From a virus, in the IMG/VR virus record IMGVR_UViG_3300017735_000083, positions 1-26,460 of that record: a stretch of 26,460 bases of DNA. One strand, 5' to 3'. Position numbers and translations under genes: made by a program. Under the pieces are notes generated by a model, which worked only from the letters and a program-made list of their open reading frames with translations, did not search any database and had not been told where the DNA came from. This document shows, one piece after another, positions 16,778 to 26,156 of the stretch (position 1 is the stretch's first letter; each line of letters begins with the position of its first letter).

Positions 16778-17065
16778 TTAACCTGCAAATACATTACTGC
16801 TCCCTGCTGCAACTGAGGTACATCCTGATACTGCGTCTCCAACACGCCCTATACCTAGACCATTTACCTTTACTGTTCCGCTACCACTTGTAATAGCTGC
16901 GCTGTGTGCTGGACAAGGACTACCTGGTAATAAGTGCACAGTATTTTTATGTGATTGACAAGATACAGGTCGGCCATTAACAAATACATTGCCTGAACCT
17001 TGCGCCCTTACCATACCAGAACAGTGAGCAAAATCAGCATCTCCTATACGTGTTACAGCAGGCAT
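16778..17065 (-). CDS. 5.4: PAAR-repeat spike-tip protein (gp5.4-like)
   Basis: 95 residues, nearly the same as T4 gp5.4 (97). It is a PAAR protein: MPAVTRIGDADFAHCSG at the start, the turn-rich core VFVNGRPVSCQ ... GTVKVNGLGIGRVGDAVSGC, and repeated short Gly-bounded strands that form the small cone. Candidate metal ligands are H14, H39 or H44, H54 and C82, in line with the His/Cys zinc site of PAAR tips. The protein caps the end of the gp5 beta-helix and sharpens the needle that pierces the outer membrane. Its ATG overlaps the stop of the 153-aa gene by one base (TAATG), so it is translationally coupled. It is the last gene of the unit that starts with gp48. Confidence 0.93.
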   Translation of the reverse strand: MPAVTRIGDADFAHCSGMVRAQGSGNVFVNGRPVSCQSHKNTVHLLPGSPCPAHSAAITSGSGTVKVNGLGIGRVGDAVSGCTSVAAGSSNVFAG

Positions 17066-22880: not shown

Positions 22881-23561
22881 ATGAGCTTTATAGATACAGT
22901 TAAAAACGCCCTTAACCCAAGCACCATTGATTCCTTTAAGGCCAATATTGGAAAGCATGGAGGTTTAGCACCACAAAATAGATTCGTTGTTATTATGACT
23001 CCGCCCCAAGCAAGTCTTTTAAACATCGATTTACAAGGTGTAGGTGCATCACTATTGAGTGGAACATTCGATCCTATGTCACTTATTAACGATCCAAGAG
23101 ATGTAGCGTTATTGTGTGAATCATGCTCTTTACCAGGTAGACAAATACAGACAATTGACCACACAGATTTTAGGCAAACAACCAAAAGACCTAATGGCTA
23201 TTTTAACGAAGATATTACATTTACTTTTCATTTAACAAATGATTATTATATGAAAAAATTATTTGATAAGTGGTCTGGTCTAATAATAGATCAAGAGTCT
23301 TATAAATTAAACTATAAAGCCAATTATGTTTCAGACATAATTATACAACAACTTGATCAAAACAATACACCAATTTATGGTATAAGGCTTAAAAACGCCT
23401 TTCCTGTTACATTGGCTACAATTGATTTGACTAACGCTGGAACTGAAACACAAAAATTAAGTGTTACTATGGCGTATGACGATTTTGAACCTGAAGGAGC
23501 TATTTCCTCCGTACTTTCAGGTGTTAAAGAAATAGTAGGAGGAATACGAAGATTAATATAA
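22881..23561 (+). CDS. Tail tube-fold protein, probably tube initiator gp54-like
   Basis: 226 residues with the tube-protein layout: a short N-terminal region, APQNRFVVIMTPP, then ESCSLPGRQIQTIDHTDFRQ, KRPNGYFNEDITFTFHLTND, MKKLFDKWSGLIID, and a last beta sheet (LKNAFPVTLATIDLTNAGTE, KLSVTMAYDDFEPE). Marine T4-like phages carry several such proteins (gp19, gp48, gp54). The length is above T4 gp19 (163) and below gp54 (321). Its place just before gp26/51 and gp29, with gp48 encoded nearby, favours gp54, the ring between gp48 and the gp19 tube; gp19 cannot be excluded. ATG overlaps the word ATATAAATG; the previous stop ends directly at the start, so translation is probably coupled. Confidence 0.8.
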   Translation: MSFIDTVKNALNPSTIDSFKANIGKHGGLAPQNRFVVIMTPPQASLLNIDLQGVGASLLSGTFDPMSLINDPRDVALLCESCSLPGRQIQTIDHTDFRQTTKRPNGYFNEDITFTFHLTNDYYMKKLFDKWSGLIIDQESYKLNYKANYVSDIIIQQLDQNNTPIYGIRLKNAFPVTLATIDLTNAGTETQKLSVTMAYDDFEPEGAISSVLSGVKEIVGGIRRLI

Positions 23562-23577
23562 AAAAGTGATATAAATT

Positions 23578-24273
23578 ATGACATTACCAAAACTAGAATC
23601 GCCGAAGTATGAAGTAGTCATACCTTCGACAAAACAATCGTATGAAATTAGACCTTTTCTTGTAAAAGAAGAAAAGATTCTTATGATCGCGCAAGAATCA
23701 AGCAATACCGCGCAGATCGTAAAGGCAATGAAAGAGATTATTTCTGCCTGTTCGTTTAATAAAATAAAAGTAAATGAACTTACGAGCTATGATGTAGAAT
23801 ATTTGTTTTTGCAATTACGCGCTATTAGCGTTGGAGAAACTGCAGACGTTAAATTCAAATGTTCTGAGTGCGCGCACGAGAATGAAGTAACCATCAACCT
23901 TAAAGAAGTTGAAGTCAAATATCCTGAAAAGGAAGTAAGCAATAAGATCCAATTAAATGATTCGATCGGCATTGTTCTTAAGCCTTTATCTTTATCTGAT
24001 ATGAGTAAAATTGAAGAAGATGCTGATATTGTTGAGACTATTACACTCGTTATTGATTCAATTTATGATGAAGATAACGTATATGACTCTAAAGAATCGT
24101 CTAAAAAGGAATTATACGAGTTTGTTGAATCATTAAACCATACACAGATCGAAAAGATTCAAGAATATTTAACCAATCAGCCAAAGCTTTCATACGAAGT
24201 TAAATTTGTATGTTCTGAGTGCGGCCACGAAAACACTATAACATTAGAAGGAATTCAGTCTTTTTTTACCTAG
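23578..24273 (+). CDS. 26: gp26-like baseplate/tail assembly chaperone (zero frame)
   Basis: 231 residues (T4 gp26 208). The N-terminus LPKLESPKYEVVIPSTKQSY, RPFLVKEEKILMIAQES and YDVEYLFLQLRAISVGE is the T4 gp26 family (Pfam T4 baseplate protein) pattern. It contains two matching zinc-knuckle-like motifs, KFKCSECAHEN (C95, C98, H100) and KFVCSECGHEN (C212, C215, H217), which may join on one metal. It ends FFT-stop directly after seven T bases (24261-24267), where a -1 slip would carry translation into the gp51-like frame. It lies upstream of the tape measure, the same relation as lambda G/GT. gp26 is thought to aid hub assembly around gp29. TATAAATT directly precedes the ATG; no Shine-Dalgarno is visible. 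Confidence 0.92.
   Translation: MTLPKLESPKYEVVIPSTKQSYEIRPFLVKEEKILMIAQESSNTAQIVKAMKEIISACSFNKIKVNELTSYDVEYLFLQLRAISVGETADVKFKCSECAHENEVTINLKEVEVKYPEKEVSNKIQLNDSIGIVLKPLSLSDMSKIEEDADIVETITLVIDSIYDEDNVYDSKESSKKELYEFVESLNHTQIEKIQEYLTNQPKLSYEVKFVCSECGHENTITLEGIQSFFT
24261..24267 (+). promoter_or_regulatory. Probable -1 ribosomal frameshift site T_TTT_TTT
   Basis: Zero-frame codons are TCT TTT TTT ACC TAG. Two Phe tRNAs can slip back one base and re-pair perfectly. The -1 frame then reads TAC CTA GGC CTG (YLGL), joining gp26 to the gp51-like part. The zero-frame stop is only one codon later. No strong downstream hairpin was seen; CCTAGGCCT could form only a small one. Confidence 0.75.
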
Positions 24274-24455
24274 GCCTGTCGCATGATTCACTAATAAATC
24301 ACTATCAAACTAACTTTTCTATGGCCCAACACCATAAATATAGTTTAACAGAACTTGATAATATGATTCCATGGGAGAGGCAAATTTACGTTTCACTTTT
24401 AATGGAACACATCAAAGAAGAAAACGAAAAGATTAAAAACTCTAATTTAAAATAA
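24267..24455 (+). CDS. 51: gp51-like hub assembly segment, expressed by -1 frameshift from gp26
   Basis: 62 codons in the -1 frame relative to gp26: YLGLSHDSLINHYQTNFSMA, HHKYSLTELDNMIPWERQIY, then an amphipathic helix MEHIKEENEKIKN. The FFYLGLSHDSLxNHYQTNFS and LTELxNMIPWER patterns are familiar from small T4-like proteins annotated as gp51 (hub assembly catalyst). The frame has no ATG before 24321; upstream there is only a GTG at 24219 inside gp26 with no ribosome site. The conserved FF residues are encoded by the slip site itself, so the natural product is probably a gp26-gp51 fusion of about 292 residues. Its stop TAA touches the gp29 ATG. T4 gp51 is much longer (249 aa), so orthology with T4 gp51 is uncertain, while membership of the marine family is likely. 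Confidence 0.75.
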   Translation, partial: YLGLSHDSLINHYQTNFSMAQHHKYSLTELDNMIPWERQIYVSLLMEHIKEENEKIKNSNLK

Positions 24456-26156
24456 ATGGCAAATGAAGATAACAGTTTAGATGATGTAGTCAATAAGTTA
24501 AAAGATATTGAAGGCCTCATCAAAAAAGGAAGTAAAGACTCAAAGAGCGATAAGAAAACTACATCTATTGCATTAAGCAAATTAGGTAATTCTATTAAAG
24601 GCTCTTTAGGTACTTTAAAATCTTCAATCACTGCTCCATTTGCTGCACTAAAAAATACAATCACTGCTCCTTTTGAAGGAATTAAATCGGCGTTAATAGC
24701 ACCATTTGATTTTCTTAAAAAAGGATTTAGCGGCATTGGTAACTTTTTTAAAAATCGTAAAGAACAAAAATCTCTTCAAGGACTTGGAAAGGCTATTGAT
24801 AGTTTAAGGGGTGAACTTACCACAAAATTCGATAAACTGGTTGAAATTGGTAACGATACCTTAAACGCTATTGCATCGATTAATGCATCTGCACCAATGG
24901 AAAAGGGTAATGATTTAGCAGATGCTGAAAAGCGTAAAGAGCAAAAGGCTTTATTAGTACGAATAGCAGAGTCTATTGAAAATATGTCTGGCGCGCCTTC
25001 AGCTGGAGGTGATGTAAAAGCAAGTGGTGGTGTTGGTGCACTTGGTAAAATTGGAAAAAGTTTAGGTGCAGGAATTGGTGGTCTAGTTAAAGGCATTGGT
25101 GCTGGATTTGCTGCAGTTGGTAAAAACTTTGGCAGAGTAATTAAAGGTGCTATAGCAATTGCTGCAATCGGTGCATCGTTAATTCCTGCAGCAAAGGCGT
25201 TTCAAGAATTTAGTGAAGTAACGTGGGATGCTGTTAAAGTAGGACTAACAGTATTAGCCGGTTTAACCGTTGCAGCTGCCGCATTAAGTTTTGCTTCACC
25301 TGCAATATTAATTGGCGCGGCTGCAATTGGTGTATTGGCACTTGCAATGTTACCTGCTGCAAAAGCGTTTCAAATGTTTGGTGCTGCTTTAAATGAGCAT
25401 GTAATGCCAGCGCTTAAACAATTTCAGCCAATCATTAATGATTTCATTGATAGATTAATTACTAACTTTGGTTCTCTTTCTGAAATTGTTCAAGGGTTTA
25501 TTGGTGGAACAATTGATGTACTAGTAACAGCGTTTGAAAGAGCGACTTCTAGTATAGGAGGTCTTATACAGACAATTAGTACTGAAATTCAAGAACTTGG
25601 TGCACTTGATGGCGCTTCATTATTATCAGTTGCCGCGGGTATTACTGCAGTTGGTGCATCACTTGCAGCGTTTGGCGCTGGTGGAACAATTGGTAAAATA
25701 TTAGGATCGATTGGCGAAGGATTTAGCAAACTTTTTGGTGCTGAAAGCCCTATTGAACAATTGAAAGAAATTGCCAATCTTGGGCCTTCGTTAGAACGAG
25801 GTATTGCACCATTAGAAAAAATTCCTGTAATTTTAAAACAAATTAGTGAATCTTTAAAAACCGGATTTAAAGCAGAAATTTCAGATGCTGGTGATGCAAT
25901 ACACGATTTGCTTAAAGACATTGATAAGGGTTTGGACAAAATCGACTTCAAAAAACTTGATAAAGTTACAGGTCTTATTATTCATAGAGTAGTAACTGAA
26001 ACTGCTGACGTAAGCAGAGAACAATCTGAAGCAAATCGCGCTTCGATGACAAACGCGATCGTGGATTCAAGAACAACAAATGCTCCAAAGGTCGAAAGCG
26101 TAACTTATAACGATAGCGGTTTAATTGATAGAACTGCTAACTCTTTTGCGTACTAA
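24456..26156 (+). CDS. 29: Tail tape measure / baseplate hub gp29
   Basis: 566 residues, close to T4 gp29 (590). The layout is that of a tape measure: a charged helical N-terminus, a long helix-rich stretch, hydrophobic segments at about 225-310 (VIKGAIAIAAIGASLIPAAK, VGLTVLAGLTVAAAALSF, IGAAAIGVLALAMLPAAK) and a helical, polar C-terminus. Two repeats are visible: ITAPF/ITAPF/IAPF at about 58, 69 and 80, and the pair LIPAAKAFQEF / MLPAAKAFQMF. The membrane-like part probably enters the host inner membrane at DNA ejection; length of the helical part sets tail length. It starts directly after the gp51-like stop (TAAATG) with no Shine-Dalgarno, so its yield likely depends on ribosomes finishing the frameshifted chaperone. 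Its stop overlaps the A-run of a minus-strand terminator. Confidence 0.9.
   Translation: MANEDNSLDDVVNKLKDIEGLIKKGSKDSKSDKKTTSIALSKLGNSIKGSLGTLKSSITAPFAALKNTITAPFEGIKSALIAPFDFLKKGFSGIGNFFKNRKEQKSLQGLGKAIDSLRGELTTKFDKLVEIGNDTLNAIASINASAPMEKGNDLADAEKRKEQKALLVRIAESIENMSGAPSAGGDVKASGGVGALGKIGKSLGAGIGGLVKGIGAGFAAVGKNFGRVIKGAIAIAAIGASLIPAAKAFQEFSEVTWDAVKVGLTVLAGLTVAAAALSFASPAILIGAAAIGVLALAMLPAAKAFQMFGAALNEHVMPALKQFQPIINDFIDRLITNFGSLSEIVQGFIGGTIDVLVTAFERATSSIGGLIQTISTEIQELGALDGASLLSVAAGITAVGASLAAFGAGGTIGKILGSIGEGFSKLFGAESPIEQLKEIANLGPSLERGIAPLEKIPVILKQISESLKTGFKAEISDAGDAIHDLLKDIDKGLDKIDFKKLDKVTGLIIHRVVTETADVSREQSEANRASMTNAIVDSRTTNAPKVESVTYNDSGLIDRTANSFAY

Follow-up and report, generated by a model that had tools for sequence, protein, structure and literature searches.

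The gp26/gp51 locus and its neighbours

The window considered here, i.e., the whole stretch of DNA that was analysed, comprises 26,460 bases of an uncultivated virus record (IMG/VR). Within it, a gp26-like gene lies between a tail tube-like gene and a probable tail tape measure gene, and a gp51-like segment continues in the -1 frame from the end of gp26 (Table 1). The gp26 product matches Pfam PF12322 (T4_baseplate; E 8.7e-63, 212 bits vs. a cut-off of 24.5) and phrog_150 (4e-71), and it contains Cys-rich, zinc-ribbon-like stretches. The tail tube-like product also matches PF06841 (E 5.5e-6, slightly below the Pfam cut-off), and the phrog_634 family matched by the -1 extension is labelled 'baseplate hub assembly catalyst'.

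Table 1. Features at and next to the gp26/gp51 junction, in window coordinates
Feature	Position	Strand	Evidence
Tail tube-like gene, directly 5' of gp26	22881..23561	+	phrog_45 tail tube, E 2.8e-36
gp26-like gene, short tail assembly chaperone form (putative), 231 aa, 0 frame	23578..24273	+	PF12322; phrog_150; structure model
Slippery heptamer T TTT TTT, -1 frameshift (predicted)	24261..24267	+	Sequence; 180/180 loci of the layout
-1 frame extension, gp51-like C-terminal segment, 62 aa + TAA	24267..24455	+	phrog_634, E 5e-27; hhalign
Probable tail tape measure gene, 566 aa	24456..26156	+	Weak profile matches: phrog_1272, E 9e-7, and three others

The last codons of gp26, TCT TTT TTT ACC TAG (24259-24273), include a run of exactly seven T's, with the 0-frame codons TTT at 24262-24264 and 24265-24267 and the 0-frame stop TAG at 24271-24273. 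Read in the -1 frame, the sequence continues as VFFYLGLSHDSLINHYQTNFSMAQHHKYSLTELDNMIPWERQIYVSLLMEHIKEENEKIKNSNLK and terminates at TAA 24453-24455, so that the joined product would comprise 292 aa. The window has 8,522 codons and four in-frame copies of T TTT TTN, of which only the gp26 copy stands where a gene ends with an open -1 frame after it. An earlier, sequence-only reading of this DNA had given the coordinates, the codons and the joined peptide FFYLGLSHDS correctly. Its statement that the -1 frame has no ATG until 24321 is likewise accurate, the GTG at 24219, upstream in the same frame, having been left out. The same reading had placed the junction directly before the tape measure gene; the adjacency holds, as the ATG of the next gene (24456) immediately follows the stop of the gp51 frame, whereas the identity of that gene as a tape measure rests on weak profile matches. 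In HTVC008M, a gene annotated as 'putative tail tape measure' is found a little 3' of the gp51 region, and in several relatives one small gene separates the gp51 segment from the tape measure gene. A tblastn search with the putative tape measure protein returned no relatives among 50,697 phage records; the gp26 gene, by contrast, has more than a thousand relatives in phage records. Elsewhere in the window, a small protein encoded on the minus strand (16778-17065; MPAVTRIGDADFAHCSGMVRAQGSGNVFVNGRPVSCQ...) has, as judged by eye, the look of a PAAR-type spike tip.

Conservation of the heptamer and coding in the -1 frame

Relatives were gathered as 160 IMG/VR loci in two sets and 26 stretches from named phages, 19 of which have the gp26-then-gp51 layout. 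The heptamer T TTT TTN is in frame at all 180 loci with this layout, the window counted, although these are not independent cases, since the two IMG/VR sets partly overlap and many loci are closely related (135 distinct junctions). All 100 loci of the first set carry it, and a script found it in 79 of the 80 loci of the second; in the remaining one, where the 0-frame stop comes several codons later, the heptamer was read by eye. The layout with the heptamer spans Kyanoviridae, marine Straboviridae, Pootjesviridae and others, and the named phages cover Kyanoviridae, Schizotequatrovirus, Chrysonvirus, Emmerichvirinae, Emdodecavirus and Pootjesviridae as well as one Stenotrophomonas and one Desulfovibrio phage. 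Across the 180 loci, the T run is six to eight bases long, and the 0-frame stop almost always lies one or two codons past the heptamer, the last base of which is variable (T TTT TT(C/T/G/A)). The codon preceding the two Phe codons specifies Ser, Asp, Asn, Ala or Thr, yet ends in T in every case. Moreover, TTT serves as the first Phe codon in every one of the 68 distinct junctions of the first set (background 0.61), and none of the remaining 19 Phe-Phe pairs of gp26 has the heptamer form.

These features bear on two explanations in which the ribosome does not slip. It is extremely unlikely that the two frames are joined by transcriptional slippage, in which RNA polymerase would stutter on the T run and produce mRNAs with one base more or less: the window does offer seven T's, but the run is only six T's long in 44 of 68 distinct junctions, which is short for polymerase slippage, and the X XXY YYZ pattern for tandem tRNA slippage, aligned to the codons, is strictly retained. 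Sequencing errors are frequent at homopolymer runs, and a single gene might thus have been split by an indel within the T run; the chance of this is practically negligible, because the two-frame layout recurs in independent isolates and metagenomes, 180 loci in all, and the relatives thereby refute it.

The -1 frame behaves as coding sequence from the junction onwards. In each of the 129 testable junctions, it stays open for 59 codons or more, whereas the +1 frame reaches 50 open codons in none. In most relatives, the first 18 codons past FF come before any ATG of the -1 frame. Among the single-base codon differences in this stretch, 66% are synonymous if read in the -1 frame vs. 18% in the 0 frame, and the differences fall mainly at -1-frame third positions. 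Upstream of the junction, a start codon in the -1 frame is absent from 62 of 68 distinct junctions, and GTG 24219 is therefore not a conserved start; a stop lies at most three codons before FF in that frame in 14 of the 68. Furthermore, among 130 closed frames, 79 lack ATG, GTG and TTG both upstream and within their first 15 codons, and two relatives (locus L082 and Desulfovibrio phage 7757) have none across the entire gp51 frame. As the segment is conserved without a usable start in such relatives, a frameshift is the only simple route to its translation.

Database records mostly list gp51 as a gene of its own, often from an internal ATG (HTVC008M, S-PM2, P-SSM2, ValKK3, phiM12 and others), and in some relatives an ATG does occur shortly past the gp26 stop. 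Nonetheless, it is very unlikely that the small gp51 gene has a start of its own, at ATG 24321, at GTG 24219 or by coupled re-initiation past the gp26 stop, with a T run that is only incidental. The codons between FF and the first ATG, 20 in most relatives, are conserved as protein, two relatives lack any ATG, GTG or TTG, and the heptamer is retained despite varying flanking residues; in the window, a start at ATG 24321 would omit FFYLGLSHDSLINHYQTNFS, a segment that aligns with T4-type gp51. The -1 slip and the gp26/gp51 fusion put forward in the sequence-only reading are supported by the in-frame heptamer at every compared junction of this layout, the missing gp51-frame starts, the coding-type substitutions in the -1 frame and the homology of the fused product described below. 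In S-PM2, P-SSM2, ValKK3, phiM12 and RL38J1, a -1-frame ATG is found at the gp26 stop or a few bases from it, and in relatives of this kind a separate gp51 fragment could be produced besides the fusion.

Downstream of the slip site, the fold in the window is weak (z -0.58 against mononucleotide shuffles), and no stimulatory element is evident there. A strong downstream hairpin was observed only in S-PM2 (z -4.9), P-HM1 (z -4.0) and Melnitz (z -2.6), in the first two shortly past the slip, at about 60 bases, and is absent from the lineage of the window. A Shine-Dalgarno-like stimulator upstream of the slip was also considered and rejected: its pairing energy (-5.9 kcal/mol) is close to that of synonymous shuffles (-5.2 kcal/mol), and such an element is therefore unsupported beyond the conserved Glu-Gly codons.

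Two predicted forms of a putative tail assembly chaperone

At this locus, a programmed -1 ribosomal frameshift very probably yields a tail assembly chaperone in a short and a long form; slippage in vivo, its efficiency and the chaperone role in this phage are what we infer. The majority of ribosomes would terminate at 24271 and release gp26, whereas a minority, with the two Phe codons in the P and A sites, would shift one base back, T TTT TTT re-pairing as TTT TTT, and translate the 62 further codons to give gp26-51. The two proteins would most likely co-assemble on the tape measure protein and recruit tail tube subunits, and both would then exit the finished particle, like lambda gpG/gpGT. 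In the T4 branch, each of these two products has its own gene: the short one is gp26, and the long one is gp51, encoded in a single reading frame.

Comparison with the T4-type proteins is consistent with this scheme. A profile of the computed fusion products aligns with T4-type gp51 at 99.3% in hhalign, over 242 columns that span the junction and are colinear end to end. The C segment alone reaches 97.2% against T4-type gp51, gp26 reaches 97.6% against the N-terminal part of that protein, and T4-type gp26 and gp51 reach 95.9% against each other, whereas reversed and column-shuffled controls gave at most 1.5%. In addition, T4-type gp51 scores as PF12322 across the complete gp26 domain. In T2 and a Gelderlandvirus, the slip site is absent, gp51 comprises 249-250 aa, and gp26 and gp51 are adjacent paralogs on opposite strands. 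The earlier statement that T4 gp26 and gp51 are separate genes fits what is found, since in T2 the long form is encoded in frame as one gene without a slip site. The homology of the fusion product to gp51, and that between gp26 and gp51, indicate that the T4 branch has one gene for the short form and another for the long form; as judged by sequence comparison, the short form there is T4-type gp26, a paralog of gp51.

The AF2 model of gp26 (pLDDT 87.8) was aligned with 995 solved chains in VIA. The best match was Rbstp2171 (3fgx; Z 8.3, a value close to the usual noise ceiling; rmsd 3.8, 85 aligned residues), followed by YqbN (3klu; Z 6.5, rmsd 4.4, 85 aligned residues), and the next match reached 4.7; both leading matches are confined to gp26 residues 1-95. 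Rbstp2171 and YqbN are named tail assembly chaperones (PMC9603447). A Foldseek search of gp26 against the PDB returned no significant matches, and PF08890 (Phage_TAC_5) had no sequence match in the window. A structure was likewise predicted for the T4-type in-frame gp51; with this model, no chain reached Z of at least 5 in VIA, and chaperones were absent from the matches listed. With modest Z values and a non-significant Foldseek result, the match to the chaperone fold that YqbN and Rbstp2171 have in common with HK97 gp13 counts as support rather than proof. T4 gp26 and gp51 are described as hub assembly chaperones, with gp51 missing from the particle (PMC3004832). The best reading of the fold match, the genomic position and the logic of two products from one locus is that gp26 and gp26-51 probably form a G/GT-type chaperone pair, and this proposal of the sequence-only reading is well supported by sequence, the fold match adding to it.

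Known systems, annotation and wider distribution

Xu, Hendrix and Duda reportedly described, in 2004, a conserved frameshift of tailed phages; the lambda G/GT tail assembly chaperones are a known pair of this type. Like lambda G/GT, the locus in the window combines a short and a long form through a predicted -1 slip close to where the short frame ends, directly before a (probable) tape measure gene. At 231 aa, gp26 is larger than lambda G, and it differs from it in having the Cys-rich stretches mentioned above; the likeness is one of layout. In Vandenendeviridae and Andersonviridae, a frameshifted tail assembly chaperone is known, with a -1 shift at the poly-T motif GTTTTT, and its C-terminal part is usually listed as a separate hypothetical gene (PMC12846349). 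A poly-T -1 shift that ends the short chaperone is common to these phages and the window, although the families and the motif differ and the two are likened by layout.

The sequence-only reading had further anticipated that gp26/gp51 would be unified with the tail assembly chaperones of siphophages. This is supported but is not new: according to the accounts given in PMC10274946 and PMC12846349, T4 gp26/gp51 were unified with tail assembly chaperones by Vladimirov et al. (2022, Virology 566:9-15), a study to which PMC12846349 also refers when it mentions poly-T slip signals of genes of this kind. As far as those accounts describe it, the T4 gp26/gp51 system of that study has its protein families in common with the present locus: the joined product can be aligned from one end to the other with T4-type gp51, and gp26 with T4-type gp26. 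The locus is thus a new, well-supported member of a group whose unification has already been published. It differs from T2 and its relatives in that their long form is a separate in-frame gene, whereas here a single locus would give both forms by the predicted frameshift. In this respect, it offers a clean case of a -1 frameshift for which T4 has a duplicated counterpart that needs no frameshift, with two proteins that are both genetically tractable.

In cyanophages, a 'short gp51' that lacks the first ~200 residues of T4-type gp51 has been reported (Sullivan et al. 2010, PMC3037559). It corresponds to the same gp51-like segment as the -1 extension in the window, and the ~200 residues would be missing because gp26 supplies them via the frameshift, which accounts for this published puzzle. 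Many marine phage records would accordingly carry half a protein, the gp51 of cyanophages, pelagiphages and related phages being the tail end of the gp26-51 product; a joined gp26-51 gene is marked in none of the annotated records examined.

It can be proposed, tentatively and at slightly less than even chances, that frameshifting at one locus is ancestral for the gp26/51 chaperone of the whole T4-like superfamily and now exists in three versions: the canonical T TTT TTN in Kyanoviridae, marine Straboviridae, Pootjesviridae and others; in Ackermannviridae, a slip at ATT TTC AT(T/C) TAA that is non-canonical and weaker; and, in the T4 branch, its replacement through duplication of the gene and an in-frame fusion. 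If ancestral frameshifting is true, the 'reduced' gp51 of cyanophages is an annotation artefact.

In Ackermannviridae, the gp26-like gene ends without an X XXY YYZ heptamer. An invariant ATT TTC AT(T/C) TAA is found there in 18 IMG/VR loci and two named phages, and the -1 frame nonetheless encodes a gp51-like segment (FHLIFE... and similar) that is conserved; given the missing heptamer, this suggests a non-canonical slip. The corresponding ends read GTT TTC ATC TGA in Serratia 3M and CTT TTC ACT GTC TGA in phiA8-29.
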